DNA of 64,000 nucleotides from Flavobacteriaceae bacterium D16 (GTDB taxonomy: Bacteria; Bacteroidota; Bacteroidia; Flavobacteriales; Flavobacteriaceae), in NCBI GenBank assembly GCA_021295155.1, contig JAJTJC010000034.1, positions 186,001 to 250,000 of the forward strand, given 5' to 3'. Below the pieces are notes generated by a model. It made no database searches. It was not told the DNA's origin and worked only from the letters and a program-made list of their open reading frames with translations. Within the stretch, counting starts at the first letter, position 1. Each line of letters opens with the position of its first letter. This document shows, piece by piece, positions 57,984 through 64,000 of the stretch. The translations under genes were made by a program, and so were the position numbers.

Positions 57984-59330
57984 CTATAGGTTGAGTTTGG
58001 GCTCCTCATCTACTTCGTCTTCCTGGGCTCTTTGAAGAATGGTTTCTGGAAGGGACTTTTTGGCTTTTGCCCCCATTTTTTTCAATTTTTCTATACTGGT
58101 AATGATGTTGCCGCGCCCTTCTACCAGTTTGCTCATAGCCCCCTGGTATTCCCTTTTGGCTTCATCCATTTTACGTCCAACTTTAGTTAGGTCAGTCACA
58201 AAACCTTCAAATTTATCGTACAAGGCTCCCGCCTGTCTGGCAATTTCAATGGCATTACGCTGCTGCTTCTCGTTATTCCACATACTGTCTATGGTTCTGA
58301 GTGTAGCCAGCAGGGTAGAAGGGGTAACGATTACAATATTCTTTTCAAATGCCTGGTTATATAGATTATTGTCATGATTAATAGCCAGTGCAAATGCCGG
58401 TTCAATGGGGACAAACATGAGTACAAAATCAGGGCTCTCCATTTCATATAACTCCTCATATTTCTTGGAAGACAATTCATTGACATGTTTCTTAAGGGAG
58501 TTCACATGGTCTTGCAGGAATTTAGGCCTGAGGTCGTCTTCGGCGTTTACAAACCGCTCGTAATCGGTCAGTGAAACCTTGGAATCCACGATCATTTTTT
58601 TACCATCCGGAAGGTTAATGATCACATCGGGCATAACCCGGCTCCCGTCTTCGCGAGTAAAACTTTTTTGTACAAGATATTCCCGGTCTTTTTCCAGGCC
58701 TGATTTCTCCAAAACACGTTCCAGGACCAATTCTCCCCAATTCCCTTGCATTTTACTATCCCCTTTTAAAGCTTTTGTGAGGTTGGTGGCCTCCCGGGTC
58801 ATTTGTTCGTTGAGTTCCTTTAATCCATAGATCTGCTGTCTAAGTGCAGCATGGTAATCAATACTTTCCTTATGCGTTTTTTCTACTTTGTCTTCAAAGG
58901 TTTTGATCTTTTCTTTGAGTGGATTCAGGATATTTTCCAGGCTCTCCTTATTCTGCCTGGCGAATTTGCTGCTTTTCTCCTCAAGAATTTTATTGGCCAG
59001 GTTCTCAAATTCCTTGGTGAATTTTTCCTGGAGCTTTTCTACTTCTTCTTTCTGTTCCTGATTTTTTTGTCGGAGGTTGTCCATATCGGCCTCATAACGC
59101 ACCAACTGATAGCCAAGCTCTTCTTTCTTTTGACCCAGTTCCTGTTTTTCATTGGCCACCTGCTCAAGGCGCTGCTCCAATCCCGAAATGTGCTGATTCA
59201 ATTGCTTCTCGCGCTCTTCCAGGGCACTATGCCTTGATCTGGTCCGCAGCAATTGAATATAACGTCCTACTCCAAAGCCAATTGCTAGTGTGATCAGTCC
59301 AGTTAAAAAATAGGGGAGAATACCGTCCAT
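57984..59330 (-). CDS. rmuC: DNA recombination protein RmuC
   Basis: 448 residues. An N-terminal membrane helix (ILPYFLTGLITLAIGFGVGR) is followed by a coiled coil (about 30-190, many E/K/Q heptads) and the RmuC domain from about 190: KALKGDSKMQGNWGELVLER, MPDVIINLPDGKKMIVDSKV and FVPIEPAFALAINHDNNLYN. The core has a restriction-enzyme-like fold (MIVDSKV strand), and family members limit DNA inversions. The C-terminal tail is acidic. The gene is alone between gnd and the B12 transporter genes. Confidence 0.92.
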   Translation of the reverse strand: MDGILPYFLTGLITLAIGFGVGRYIQLLRTRSRHSALEEREKQLNQHISGLEQRLEQVANEKQELGQKKEELGYQLVRYEADMDNLRQKNQEQKEEVEKLQEKFTKEFENLANKILEEKSSKFARQNKESLENILNPLKEKIKTFEDKVEKTHKESIDYHAALRQQIYGLKELNEQMTREATNLTKALKGDSKMQGNWGELVLERVLEKSGLEKDREYLVQKSFTREDGSRVMPDVIINLPDGKKMIVDSKVSLTDYERFVNAEDDLRPKFLQDHVNSLKKHVNELSSKKYEELYEMESPDFVLMFVPIEPAFALAINHDNNLYNQAFEKNIVIVTPSTLLATLRTIDSMWNNEKQQRNAIEIARQAGALYDKFEGFVTDLTKVGRKMDEAKREYQGAMSKLVEGRGNIITSIEKLKKMGAKAKKSLPETILQRAQEDEVDEEPKLNL

Positions 59331-59397: not shown

Positions 59398-60168
59398 CTA
59401 TTGTATTTTAAATGTTCCTGTGCTGGCATCAAAACGGACAAGGTCCGAGGGGAAAAGTGTGTCAAAATTCTTCTGGGCAATCAACTCGCAGGGTTCACCA
59501 AAATACTGGCTGTTGGGACCAATGATCAGCATACGATCGCACAATTGAATCGCCAGGTCAAGTTCATGGGTTGTAAAAATGATGATCTTTCGTGTTTTAT
59601 GAGCAACCTGTTGCAAAGTCTTCAGGATCTGTACTTTATGGTACAGGTCCAGATGTGTAGTGGGCTCATCCAAAAGCAATAGATCCGTGTCCTGGGCTAA
59701 CGCCCTTGCAATAAGTGCTTTTTGCAACTGACCGTCACTGAGTTCAAAACACTTTTTGTCTTTAAGTGAATCCAACCCCATTAGCATAATAACCTCCTTA
59801 ATGTGTTCCCTGTCCGTTGTTGATAAGCTGCCTATCCAGTTGGTATAGGGTTGTCTGCCCAGGGCGATGAGTTCCGAAACCGTGATATTTCGGGTGCTTA
59901 AGGGTTCTGTAAGTACCACCCCTATTTTTCTGGAGAGTTGTTTTACTGCATATTCGTCCAAGGGTTTTTCATCCAAGGTGATTTTGCCTTTGAGTTCTGG
60001 CTGGATTCGCCCGAGGGTTCTAAGCAAAGTAGATTTCCCTATGCCGTTAACACCCACTATGGCAGCAAGCTCTCCGGCCTTAATTGTAAAGTTCAGGTTA
60101 TCGGCTATTACCGTGGTCTTCTTTCTTGACCGGTATCCTATGGCTAGCTTTTCTACTTGCAGGTTAAT
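59398..60168 (-). CDS. btuD: B12/iron-siderophore ABC transporter ATPase, BtuD-like (non-standard start)
   Basis: About 256 residues if it starts at the ATT at 60168; a GTG at 60057 exists but would cut off the ATPase before its Walker A. Visible are NLQVEKLAIGYRSRKKTTVI, Walker A VGVNGIGKSTLL, signature ELSDGQLQKALIARALAQ, Walker B LLLLDEPTTHLD and the H-loop IIIFTTHELD. No ATG, GTG or TTG is in frame between an upstream TGA (about 60201) and the Walker A, so the real start is a rare codon or the frame is disturbed. It powers the adjacent permease; cobalamin is inferred from the divergent riboswitch. Confidence 0.82.
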   Translation of the reverse strand: MNLQVEKLAIGYRSRKKTTVIADNLNFTIKAGELAAIVGVNGIGKSTLLRTLGRIQPELKGKITLDEKPLDEYAVKQLSRKIGVVLTEPLSTRNITVSELIALGRQPYTNWIGSLSTTDREHIKEVIMLMGLDSLKDKKCFELSDGQLQKALIARALAQDTDLLLLDEPTTHLDLYHKVQILKTLQQVAHKTRKIIIFTTHELDLAIQLCDRMLIIGPNSQYFGEPCELIAQKNFDTLFPSDLVRFDASTGTFKIQ

Positions 60169-60221
60169 GGTTGTATTTTTTAAATTGACACGATATTGAG
60201 AGTGAAAATTACGTCAAAAAC

Positions 60222-61253
60222 TCAGAAGATCATCTTTTTTTTCCGCAGTAATAACCAAATCACAATTGGGGCACCAATCACCGAAGTAATAGCATTGATA
60301 GGCAGCACATAAGAGGAGGATGGCATCTGGGCAAGGGTATCGCACAACAAAAGCAGAATGGCGCCATAAAGCAAGACCGCCGGAACCAATACCTTATGGT
60401 CTGTGGTGTTAAATATCTGACGGGTAAGATGGGGTACCGCCAGCCCCACAAAGGCGATAGGTCCCGCAAAAGCGGTAACAGAACCTGCCAACAAGCCTGT
60501 GGCAACAATGATCAGGTAACGCGATTTTCGAATGGCTATACCAATGCTACGGGCATAATTTTCTCCCAGTAACAAGGCATTCAGGGATTTTATGGAAAGT
60601 ATGCTGAGTAGTATACCAATTAGGACAACCAGGCTTAACAGGAGAAGCTGGGACCAGGAGAGGTTGCCAACACTTCCAAACGACCAGTAAATATACTGTC
60701 GGAGTTGCTCGGCTTCAGTAAAGTATGATAAGATGGAAACCAGTGCAGCTGTGATGCTGCCAAACATAAGGCCGATGATCAATAAAGCCATGGTGTCTTT
60801 GATTCTGGTCGCAACTACCACAACAACCAGCAATACAAGAAAACTCCCAAGACTGGATGCCACTATAAGGGAAATGTCTTGAGTAAACCCCAGGATGGCA
60901 ACCCCTCCAAACAGGGACACTCCCATAATGAGCATAGCCGCTCCCAGGCTTGCTCCCGAACTGATTCCCAGTACAAAAGGACCTGCTAGTGGATTTCTAA
61001 ACAACGTTTGCATCAACAAACCACTTAAGGATAGGCTAGCTCCGGCTAATATTGCGGTTAACGCTTTGGGAATCCTGTATTCCCAAATAATGTACTCCCA
61101 GGAGGATTCCGCTGCAGTACCTCCCAGAATAACAGACATCGTTTCTCCAAAAGGGATATTTACAGACCCCAGGCTGATATTCAGGCCAAGGCTCAAAACT
61201 AGTAACAATCCCAAATAGAGAAATCCGGTGATGTAGGTTTTGCTAGGGTACAC
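60222..61253 (-). CDS. btuC: FecCD/BtuC-like ABC permease (GTG start)
   Basis: 343 residues with about ten membrane helices. The FecCD signatures NPLAGPFVLGISSGASLGAA (about 89-108) and PIAFVGLAVPHLTRQI (about 265-280), the coupling helix to the ATPase, are present. The start is GTG at 61253, directly after the TAA of the binding-protein gene (no gap); an upstream ATG does not exist in frame. The family imports siderophores, haem or cobalamin; the B12 riboswitch on the divergent receptor makes cobalamin the likeliest cargo. The ATPase follows after about 53 bases. Confidence 0.92.
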   Translation of the reverse strand: MYPSKTYITGFLYLGLLLVLSLGLNISLGSVNIPFGETMSVILGGTAAESSWEYIIWEYRIPKALTAILAGASLSLSGLLMQTLFRNPLAGPFVLGISSGASLGAAMLIMGVSLFGGVAILGFTQDISLIVASSLGSFLVLLVVVVVATRIKDTMALLIIGLMFGSITAALVSILSYFTEAEQLRQYIYWSFGSVGNLSWSQLLLLSLVVLIGILLSILSIKSLNALLLGENYARSIGIAIRKSRYLIIVATGLLAGSVTAFAGPIAFVGLAVPHLTRQIFNTTDHKVLVPAVLLYGAILLLLCDTLAQMPSSSYVLPINAITSVIGAPIVIWLLLRKKKMIF

Positions 61254-62393
61254 TTATTCTAAAGGCTTAAAAAAGTAGAGCTCCCTTTCCGGAAGTAACT
61301 CAGGATGAAATATAGCGATTAAGTCTAACAGTACCTCATGGGGATTCGCAGGAGCCAATTCGTAATACAGCAGTCCTCCGCTTAGTCCTTTTGTTCGAGC
61401 AAAGGTATACACCCTTTTTTCTCTGAATGCCCGAAATTGCGCATAGTGCCGGCTTGCCTCGGCCATCTCCCCATAACTGGTGTATTGAGATGGAGATACC
61501 CATACGATTGCATCTCTTCCTTTTTCCAGTACAGCTTCCAGACTCAGGGAGAGACTGCCTGTGCCCGGACTGTCTTTCCAAAGGTAGTTGGCACCAGCAT
61601 CTTCAAGGAATTGAGCTGCCCAACTGTCACCGGCAGGGAGATACCAGACATCTTTGTAGAGTGCTCCACTAATTGCAGAGGGTCTCTGCTTTGCCTTTTT
61701 GATCAAATTACGGGCTTCCAGGTACGCGGTTTCAACTGCAGCAAATTCTTCATTTGCCTTATCTTCCCTTCCAAAGAACGGAGCGTAGAATTTAATCCAC
61801 TCAGCCTTACCCAGGGGCGTATCTTCGGTCCAATCACCGATATAAACAGTGGGAATCCCAGCCTGCTTAAGCGTTTGGTAAGTAGTATTCTCCCCATTGA
61901 TACTGAAGCCAAAAATAACTTCAGGTTGAAGCGCCAACGTAATTTCAGTATTGATAGCTTCATTCCGACCAATATCTATAATCTGGCCGCTGTCAATGCG
62001 TTTTCGGGTATAGGGTGATGAGATATATTGCGTATCCGGAAATCCTACCAAACGATCAGCAACACCCAGGGATTCCAAGGCCGGGATGTGGGTGGTGGAA
62101 GTGGCTACAAGGGTTTTTAAGGGAACCGGGATAATGGCATCATAGGCATCCTTATTCAGGCTTACAGAAGGTAATAATTCGCGGGGAACTAGGGCATATA
62201 CCAAATCCTCACTGGCATCAGGCCATGGTGATCTTACTCTTAAAAGTGTAATCCCTGAGCCGGATTTCTCTATTGAAAAGCCATTGGCATAGCTAATCTC
62301 AAGAGTGTTGTTAATCTCAATTTGGGATGTATTGTTCCGCTGTTCTTTACAAGATAGGACGAGCAGCAGGGCGATTAATGGGAAGGATTTCAA
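61254..62393 (-). CDS. btuF: Substrate-binding lipoprotein of B12-type ABC transporter (TTG start)
   Basis: 379 residues. A TTG at 62393 is the only canonical start; an in-frame TGA lies 8 codons upstream. The N-terminus KSFPLIALLLVLSCKEQ has a lipobox with Cys15. The periplasmic-binding fold shows the family marks LVATSTTHIPALESLGVADR (about 92-111), NTEITLALQPEVIFGFS and GSLSLSLEAVLEKGRDAIVW. Class III binding proteins such as BtuF, FhuD and FepB share this two-lobe fold with a long linking helix. The cargo is inferred from the divergent cobalamin riboswitch. Confidence 0.88.
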   Translation of the reverse strand: MKSFPLIALLLVLSCKEQRNNTSQIEINNTLEISYANGFSIEKSGSGITLLRVRSPWPDASEDLVYALVPRELLPSVSLNKDAYDAIIPVPLKTLVATSTTHIPALESLGVADRLVGFPDTQYISSPYTRKRIDSGQIIDIGRNEAINTEITLALQPEVIFGFSINGENTTYQTLKQAGIPTVYIGDWTEDTPLGKAEWIKFYAPFFGREDKANEEFAAVETAYLEARNLIKKAKQRPSAISGALYKDVWYLPAGDSWAAQFLEDAGANYLWKDSPGTGSLSLSLEAVLEKGRDAIVWVSPSQYTSYGEMAEASRHYAQFRAFREKRVYTFARTKGLSGGLLYYELAPANPHEVLLDLIAIFHPELLPERELYFFKPLE

Positions 62394-62423: not shown

Positions 62424-62479
62424 CTCCAATTTTTCAACGAGCGGAGTATTTAAATTTCATTACTTTGTTATTGGAATTA

Positions 62480-62690
62480 CGGTGCCCTCTGCCATATGTT
62501 AGGGTTTAGGGCTTAAAATGGGAATTCAGTGCTGTTAAGGGGGCCAAACCTGCTCCCTGGATTCAAAAGCTGAAACTGTACCCGCAACTGTTAGCTAAGT
62601 CACAATTGCTGTGATGCTTGCGGCATCTTCTAACCACTGTTCTTTGGAACGGGAAGGGCGCCGGCAAGACGCAAGTCAGGAGACCTGCCG
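62480..62690 (+). ncRNA. Cobalamin (adenosylcobalamin) riboswitch
   Basis: The leader of the TonB receptor gene holds the conserved cobalamin core in order: GGTGCCCT at 62481 pairing with AGGGCGCC at 62655-62662, TTAAAATGGGAATTCAGTG (62513-62531), GCTGAAACTGTACCCGCAACTG (62569-62590), a CACTGT joint, and the B12 box GCAAGTCAGGAGACCTGCC at 62671-62689. Bound cobalamin should lower expression of the receptor, which starts 75 bases downstream. The 371-base stretch between the two divergent genes is filled by this element and the promoters. Confidence 0.95.
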
Positions 62691-62764
62691 TTGTTTTTGG
62701 AATCTTTTTCTCGGGATAAGGAAGGGAATGCCAACTTATGATCACACCCTAACCCATATTCAAT

Positions 62765-64000
62765 ATGCGTTCCAGGTACCTGGGAATATTGGCATGTATT
62801 GTAGCCACTGTATTTGCTCAAGCTCAGCAAGATACGGACAGCCTTGATATGCAGCAATTAGAGGAAGTAGTAGTTAGCGATTCGCGATTTAAGCTTAAGC
62901 GCTCCTTCTCCGGTAAGACAGTTATCAGCCTGGGTCCTGAAGTTTTGGAACGTTATCAGGGCGTACCCCTAGCCGTTTTGCTTAACCAGCTTAGTGGAAT
63001 TGAAATTGGCGGAAGCAGGAGCAGGCAGGGAGAGGTCCTGGGGGTATATTCACGAGGAGGCCGTGGACGACAGGTCCTGGTATTGCTGAATGGAGTTCGT
63101 ATCTCCGATCCTTCGTCTTTTTCACAGGAATACGATCTACGCTTTTTATCTACGCTTAATATAGAATCTATTGAGGTCATCAAAGGGGCCTCCAGTACCT
63201 TGTACGGAACCAATGCAGTTACAGCCGTAATCAACATTAAGTCTAAAAAAAGCGCCACGGAGGAGCTGTCAGGGGAGTTTCTCTCCAGGATAGGGACTAA
63301 TCAATCATCCAAAGATCAGAATTACCAGCTGGGCAGTTTTACTCATTCTGCGAGGGCCAGTGGTACCCTTAATAAATTGACCTATGCTGTTGGGGTTACA
63401 CACGATTATGCCGATGGACTTTCTTCGCTATCAACTGCGACTAATGAGGAGGATCCATTTTCCAGGACGGTTACCCAAATGAGACTTGGGTATCAAATCG
63501 AGGAAGCACTTTCTCTTCAAGTGTATGGTCAGGAAAGCCGTTTGCGTAATGATTATGATGAGTCTTTCGGGTTTACAGATGCACCCTATCGCTTTGAAAG
63601 CCGTCAGCAAAGAGTTGGTCTGATGAGCGATTTTCAATATAAATCCGGGAGCCTGCAGCTCAATGCGGCTTTTACAGAATACGATTCTGAGAATATCAGT
63701 GCCTTTCCTTCGGTATTCAAAGGGGATAACCTGATTGCCGATATTTATAATCGCTATTCCTTTGGAAAACAGATATATACGGTTTTGGGCCTGAATTACA
63801 GTAAGGACAGGACGCATCTTGCCAACAAGTCAGTATTTACCCAGGCAGATCCCTATTTGAATGTGGTCTTTGTTTCTAAGAGCGGTTTTAACCTGAATGC
63901 CGGTACCCGACTAAATTCACATTCCGAATATGGAAACCAATGGGTTTATAGCTTTAACCCCTCCTATGTCTATCGTATAGATAAAGGATACCTAAAAGGG
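62765..64000 (+). CDS. btuB: TonB-dependent vitamin B12 receptor (3' end outside window)
   Basis: The frame is open from the ATG at 62765 to the window end, 412 codons, about two-thirds of a receptor. A signal peptide (about 1-19, ending VFAQA) precedes a TonB box LEEVVVSD and a plug domain with PLAVLLNQLSGIEIGGSRSR, VYSRGGRGRQVLVLLNGVRI, IESIEVIKGASSTLYGTNAV and INIKSKKS. Barrel strands follow. It takes cobalamin across the outer membrane using TonB energy and is controlled by the riboswitch in its leader. It faces the btuFCD genes, which finish the route through the inner membrane. Confidence 0.94.
   Translation, partial: MRSRYLGILACIVATVFAQAQQDTDSLDMQQLEEVVVSDSRFKLKRSFSGKTVISLGPEVLERYQGVPLAVLLNQLSGIEIGGSRSRQGEVLGVYSRGGRGRQVLVLLNGVRISDPSSFSQEYDLRFLSTLNIESIEVIKGASSTLYGTNAVTAVINIKSKKSATEELSGEFLSRIGTNQSSKDQNYQLGSFTHSARASGTLNKLTYAVGVTHDYADGLSSLSTATNEEDPFSRTVTQMRLGYQIEEALSLQVYGQESRLRNDYDESFGFTDAPYRFESRQQRVGLMSDFQYKSGSLQLNAAFTEYDSENISAFPSVFKGDNLIADIYNRYSFGKQIYTVLGLNYSKDRTHLANKSVFTQADPYLNVVFVSKSGFNLNAGTRLNSHSEYGNQWVYSFNPSYVYRIDKGYLKG

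Follow-up and report, generated by a model that had tools for sequence, protein, structure and literature searches.

The btuD-like gene of Flavobacteriaceae bacterium D16, which encodes the ATPase of a likely vitamin B12 importer, almost certainly begins at a codon other than ATG, GTG or TTG, and its sequence context makes AUU at 60168–60166 very likely the initiation codon, the exact position being less certain than the non-canonical nature of the start. The gene lies on the minus strand of a 64,000-nucleotide stretch of contig JAJTJC010000034.1 (assembly GCA_021295155.1, positions 186,001 to 250,000; hereafter the window, numbered from its first nucleotide), downstream of a btuF-like and a btuC-like gene. 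Near-cognate codons occupy the start position of btuD in part of the family, and we regard the odd start as probably a maintained means of keeping the protein scarce and not as a sequencing mistake.

The open btuD frame spans 60213 to 59398 and is intact over 271 codons. As an earlier note on this DNA had stated, ATG, GTG and TTG are all absent between the upstream in-frame stop (60216–60214) and the Walker A motif; the first canonical codon in frame is a GTG at 60057, directly before Walker A, and therefore nothing canonical precedes the conserved N-terminus of the ATPase. The btuD gene of a congener also lacks a canonical start, and carries ATC in the column of the window's ATT. A decayed gene, or one whose sole product is a truncated protein begun at that GTG, would agree with the position of that first canonical codon. 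However, the intact frame is 81% identical to that of the congener, with a conserved N-terminal strand, and across the genes with NTH starts, codons −10 to −1 differ at 34, 19 and 49% of first, second and third positions, that is, mostly at the third, and we consider decay or truncation highly improbable. Here and below, codons are counted back from the conserved Gly-Tyr of BtuD, ATH stands for ATC, ATT or ATA, and NTG and NTH follow the same notation.

To what extent relatives share this trait was read from two sets of genes. A canonical start was absent in 39 of 119 distinct orthologues at the loci of the first searches and, after the addition of 116 further regions, in 48 of 220 distinct orthologues of the family, window and congener included. 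The 118 regions fetched for the larger set comprised 116 taken from the best-scoring listed matches in 313 genomes, the window gene and that of the congener; loci with identical last 200 residues were collapsed, and lower-scoring matches were sampled only through 40 regions. The set omits 11 loci (L020–L030) with a score under 500 or no frame containing SDGQ, and on re-reading none of these 11 lacked a canonical codon, three of them having a doubtful anchor. In this sample the trait is found mainly in the Maribacter–Zobellia–Cellulophaga–Arenibacter–Muriicola part of the family and is scattered elsewhere, and the genes concerned include those of isolates of Arenibacter, Maribacter, Zobellia, Cellulophaga, Galbibacter, Muriicola, Leptobacterium and Ulvibacterium. 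Four BtuD-like matches (G591, G532, G298 and G421) contain one internal in-frame stop, possibly from an alignment overrunning the N-terminus or from decay.

The ATG of other relatives lies mostly at codon −17 (65 genes) or −16 (27 genes). At −17 the 48 start-less genes have ATC (24), ATT (9), ATA (8), GTC (6, including the window) or TAC (1, the congener), so that ATH stands at this codon in 41 of the 48, while it is found at −16 in one and at −15 in none. The best start assignment for the 220 genes, in which window and congener were taken at −10 and six more genes were counted as non-canonical because their only canonical codons lie too near to or too far from Gly-Tyr, was ATG in 124, GTG in 26, TTG in 16, ATC in 28, ATT in 12, ATA in 9 and GTC in 5. 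Within this one family, 54 of the 220 distinct orthologues are thus assigned a non-canonical start.

These counts dispose of a base-level error in the ATPase start, which the earlier note had offered as one explanation. A single base (ATT versus ATG) would suffice for such an error, and the window genome is a 35-contig draft. The note had named an ATG at the same place in relatives as a refutation of its observation; many relatives do have the ATG, but the nearest does not, and the odd start is not refuted by the ATG of the others because 41 orthologues have ATC, ATT or ATA in its place. Besides the congener, 46 other distinct orthologues are without a canonical start, species share the exact −17 codon, and eight of the genes assigned an NTH start come from genomes listed with one contig (G049, G073, G159, G231, G252, G272, G368 and G388). 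Since start-less btuD recurs, error is excluded for the family, and the removal of an ATG from the window gene by sequencing or assembly is improbable in the extreme.

We compared btuD with other conserved frames in the 80 named loci and in the window's own flank. When the search for canonical codons extended 10 codons beyond the conserved N-terminus, 30 of 80 btuD genes had none, compared with 7 of 535 other conserved frames; by eye, those 7 look like fragments or antisense frames. Moving the cut to a single codon beyond the conserved N-terminus gave 31 of 80 and 34 of 535. A canonical start was missing in none of 40 further, mostly lower-scoring homologues (25 inside the family and 15 outside). 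On these sequence comparisons the start-less trait belongs to btuD and is more than chance.

Next, we analysed the conservation of the odd codon at −17 in 61 non-independent pairs of btuD genes with at least 75% protein identity. The codon differed at its first, second and third positions in 0, 0 and 3 pairs, whereas in the same pairs upstream positions differed at 44–48% and downstream third positions at 43–49%. Aligned isoleucine codons within the same genes differed at the third base in 562 of 1,359 cases (41%), and ATC makes up 24 of the 41 ATH codons at −17 versus 192 of 1,228 isoleucine codons in the gene bodies. With a third base that rarely differs and ATC over-represented, the exact odd codon appears to be kept in a way that an ordinary isoleucine codon is not. 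These alignments indicate that a near-cognate codon is conserved between species at the start position in the −17 class.

The start in the window was placed with a leader profile built from the 41 ATH genes, which is blind to the codon itself and ranks in-frame codons. The leaders of these genes have A at −12 to −10 (85, 85 and 71%), a purine at −3 (86%) and G in only 0–10% at each of −18 to −7, and they thus contain no Shine–Dalgarno sequence. Top rank went to the ATT at codon −10 in the window (8.1 bits) and to the ATC at codon −10 in the congener (5.9 bits), and both are preceded by A at −3 and −6, two positions that favour translation in F. johnsoniae (PMC6847099). When the two species are aligned, a gap of one base falls within the A-rich box, between codon −17 and ATT/ATC, and therefore codons upstream of ATT/ATC are unlikely to be read in both. 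The profile and the congener's ATC column thus point to the ATT that the earlier note had placed before the expected residues. No G-rich motif was found in the window leader, which does not carry the strong or extended Shine–Dalgarno sequence that is typical, although not defining, of such starts. RNA structure at the start is weak (−6 kcal/mol, z +1.15), with no evidence for a hairpin.

The rival position in the window is the GTC at codon −17. In relatives the ATG most often lies at this codon, GTC also occupies it in five Zobellia-like orthologues, and a GTC start is demonstrated for sigR of Streptomyces (PMC5472188). In the congener, however, codon −17 is TAC and the one-base gap separates it from the start column, and in the window the GTC falls outside the eight best of 18 in-frame codons in the leader profile and is preceded by C at −3 and T at −6. 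A start at this GTC is therefore unlikely, and the leader profile, the gap and A at −3 and −6 together favour the ATT.

In Zobellia and the genomes that group with it (L003, L047, L108, L120 and L121), codon −17 is GTC in all five. In none of these loci was a btuC gene present in the 900 bases preceding btuD; in L003 a different frame ends shortly before it. The leader profile ranked the GTC at −17 first in one of the five and preferred a GTC at −18 in L121, and the exact start codon in this group is less sure.

Several observations weigh against the start proposed for the window and its maintenance. The ATT lies at −10, seven codons further in than the −17 of other genera, and for this reason its placement and that of the congener's ATC depend on the leader profile and on a gap between two sequences. 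The profile itself helps but is not decisive, as in leave-one-out ranking only 16 of the 41 training genes had their own −17 codon first (31 of 41 among the top three) and the other 25 did not. A single congener is available for comparison in the window class, and there the codon itself differs (ATT versus ATC). For the −17 class, a test on 14 disjoint pairs found a different third base in 2 of 14, against 46% for isoleucine codons (P = 0.014). Codons −16 to −11 in this class also show little of the bias of translated sequence, with differences of 34, 36 and 43% at the three positions; this is not diagnostic, because ATG-start btuD genes show equally little (50, 43 and 50%). Finally, control of btuD by translation initiation factor 3 (IF3), considered below, is inferred by analogy with infC.

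Another candidate is ribosomal frameshifting at the end of btuC, which would produce a BtuC–BtuD fusion. A run of eight A residues precedes G ATG ATC TTC TGA at the btuC end in both window and congener, and in 14 of the 48 start-less genes the btuD frame is open into btuC, which would permit a frameshift. On the other hand, 23 of the 48 have an in-frame stop 3′ of the btuC stop, and for 11 no btuC was found in the preceding 900 bases. The window belongs to the 23, its TGA blocking the fusion, and frameshifting is a very improbable explanation of this gene.

The non-canonical start of btuD apparently has a repeated origin. Parsimony on one FastTree tree, without support filtering, gave 20 changes between a canonical start and none, and 14 when confined to the 195 rows beside btuC. 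By codon class, NTG changed to NTH 16–23 times, NTH to NTG 2–4 times and NTH to NTH 3–8 times. The btuD gene overlaps or abuts btuC in 65 of 116 genes with ATG starts, 3 of 40 with GTG or TTG and none of 39 with NTH. It is an attractive idea, which we do not claim, that weak codons stand in for translational coupling wherever btuD possesses its own leader, tree support being slight: about 5:0 independent pairs favoured the association of ATG with btuC overlap (median P = 0.06), with no power for NTH.

How such a start might act can be outlined from known initiation factors. BtuD would be translated from AUU in the window and from AUC, AUU, AUA or, in Zobellia-like genomes, GUC in related flavobacteria, in each case behind an A-rich leader without a Shine–Dalgarno sequence. 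The initiator tRNA, with its CAU anticodon, would pair imperfectly at the third base of the start codon, and IF3 may discriminate against the resulting initiation complexes as it does for infC. Independently of BtuC, translation of BtuD could thereby be low, or coupled to growth state and the level of IF3. With GGGCTNATAACCC, which we take to be an initiator-tRNA motif, one initiator-like tRNA was found in the window genome, with anticodon CAT; with this one pattern none with another anticodon was found in that genome, other forms not being sought. We found infC in five genomes. The four readable copies (L255, L256, L257 and L259), from the window genome, its congener and two other relatives, contain no ATG, GTG or TTG ahead of the conserved N-terminus, and all share an ATA within the conserved string 'ATA GCA ATA CGN'; the gene seems to start at AUA in these bacteria, in keeping with the IF3 autocontrol through ATT or ATC starts described in PMC5472188.

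By this analogy, we moderately favour IF3-limited, low output of btuD. The earlier note had read three weak starts in one operon as a sign of deliberately low translation; weak initiation is indeed likely for the ATPase, but TTG and GTG are ordinary in btuC and btuF, as detailed below. A more far-reaching proposal, which we put forward tentatively and hold to be rather doubtful, is that in bacteria that initiate without Shine–Dalgarno pairing the third start-codon base serves as a repeatedly evolved and maintained dial, with NTG turning into NTH many times, the odd codon kept within genera, and B12 import capacity tied to the IF3 level and growth state.

The start of btuD is of a kind known from infC, pcnB, sigR and ccpN, but it occurs in a setting without a Shine–Dalgarno sequence and apparently arose repeatedly. 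The AUU start of E. coli pcnB, a single gene of other function, is the same codon as in the window and is said to limit translation. Similarly, infC has a conserved ATH start, ATT in E. coli and ATC in Streptomyces, through which IF3 controls its own synthesis (PMC5472188), and AUA in S. aureus (PMC13009471). Whereas infC is under the control of the protein that it encodes, btuD specifies a subunit of a transporter, and its odd start was seen only in part of one family. The Streptomyces sigR gene resembles btuD in that a non-canonical start within an operon keeps one partner scarce, and its GTC, repressed by IF3, matches codon −17 of Zobellia-like btuD; its extensive conserved ribosome-binding site AGGAGGTG differs from the A-rich btuD leader without a Shine–Dalgarno sequence (PMC5472188 for sigR). 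The S. aureus genes ccpN (AUA) and cvfC1 (AUU) have conserved non-canonical starts like btuD, and their reporters reached ~10% of AUG output in poor medium, with ccpN reaching up to 30% in rich medium; in contrast to btuD, these genes have extended Shine–Dalgarno motifs and are or may be regulators, not transporter genes (PMC13009471). The phylum of the window initiates without Shine–Dalgarno sequences (PMC6847099). Searches of open-access literature, some of them aimed at btuD or ABC transporters with such starts, listed no report of a non-canonical btuD start and brought up nothing that connects the fidelity of initiation with the uptake of vitamins. The btuD series of ATG, GTG, TTG, ATC, ATT, ATA and GTC offers a natural comparison for how IF3 and leader set start-codon stringency, and gene finders limited to ATG, GTG and TTG would be bound to misplace the start of these genes.

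Features of the btuFCD region, in window coordinates.
Feature	Coordinates	Strand	Evidence or remark
btuF-like binding lipoprotein, TTG start	61254..62393	minus	Pfam Peripla_BP_2 (PF01497)
btuC-like permease, GTG start directly after btuF stop	60222..61253	minus	Pfam FecCD (PF01032); NCBIfam BtuC best, below cut-off
In-frame TGA upstream of btuD	60214..60216	minus	3′ of btuC stop
GTC at codon −17, alternative (rival) start	60187..60189	minus	Commonest ATG place in relatives
A-rich leader TTTAAAAAATACAACC	60169..60184	minus	Directly 5′ of ATT; A at −3 and −6; resembles leader of other ATH-start btuD genes
Proposed ATT (AUU) start, at codon −10 counted from Gly-Tyr	60166..60168	minus	Congener ATC in same column
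btuD-like ABC ATPase, most likely translated span (ATT start, 256 codons + stop)	59398..60168	minus	Pfam ABC_tran
Cobalamin riboswitch before divergent btuB-like gene	62463..62706	plus	Rfam RF00174, 89.2 bits
btuB-like TonB-dependent receptor, runs off the window	62765..64000	plus	NCBIfam TonB-B12, 103 bits, below cut-off, partial protein

The operon likely encodes a B12 importer, its identity and substrate being read from context, namely the gene order, the cobalamin riboswitch and the B12-type receptor alongside. The window shares with the BtuCDF importer the gene order, a FecCD permease, a Peripla_BP_2 protein and an adjoining B12-type receptor with a cobalamin riboswitch, and differs in that its proteins fall under the NCBIfam equivalog cut-offs (BtuC, 214.8 versus 334; corrinoid ATPase, 146.8 versus 537), with no NCBIfam family matching the BtuF-like protein. 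The ATPase scores 106 bits with PF00005 and has both Walker A (GVNGIGKST) and the signature LSDGQ. No riboswitch was found on the btuFCD strand between 57000 and 64000. The order BtuF-BtuC-BtuD on one strand is found in 78 of the 80 named loci, 47 of which have it placed between BtuB and RmuC. An rmuC gene (57984–59330, minus strand) lies 3′ of btuD in the window, and btuD is followed by rmuC on one strand in 76 of the 80 named loci.

In the window, the TTG start of btuF and the GTG start of btuC are ordinary. For btuF, the start can lie only at the TTG at 62393, as had been noted, with an in-frame TGA eight codons upstream and neither ATG nor GTG between; in the congener, an ATG stands four codons ahead of the TTG common to both species. 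The GTG of btuC at 61253 directly follows the btuF TAA, as it does in the congener, and the claim that btuC could start only there was slightly too strong, as in-frame TTGs occur further downstream. Across 82 stretches read with a crude cut, btuC offered TTG only in 31, GTG only in 11 and ATG in 34, and btuF offered TTG only in 19, GTG only in 2 and ATG in 55, the start-less rows (4 for btuC and 3 for btuF) being, by eye, limits of that cut. TTG or GTG was thus the sole option in 42 of 82 btuC and 21 of 82 btuF frames of the operon.

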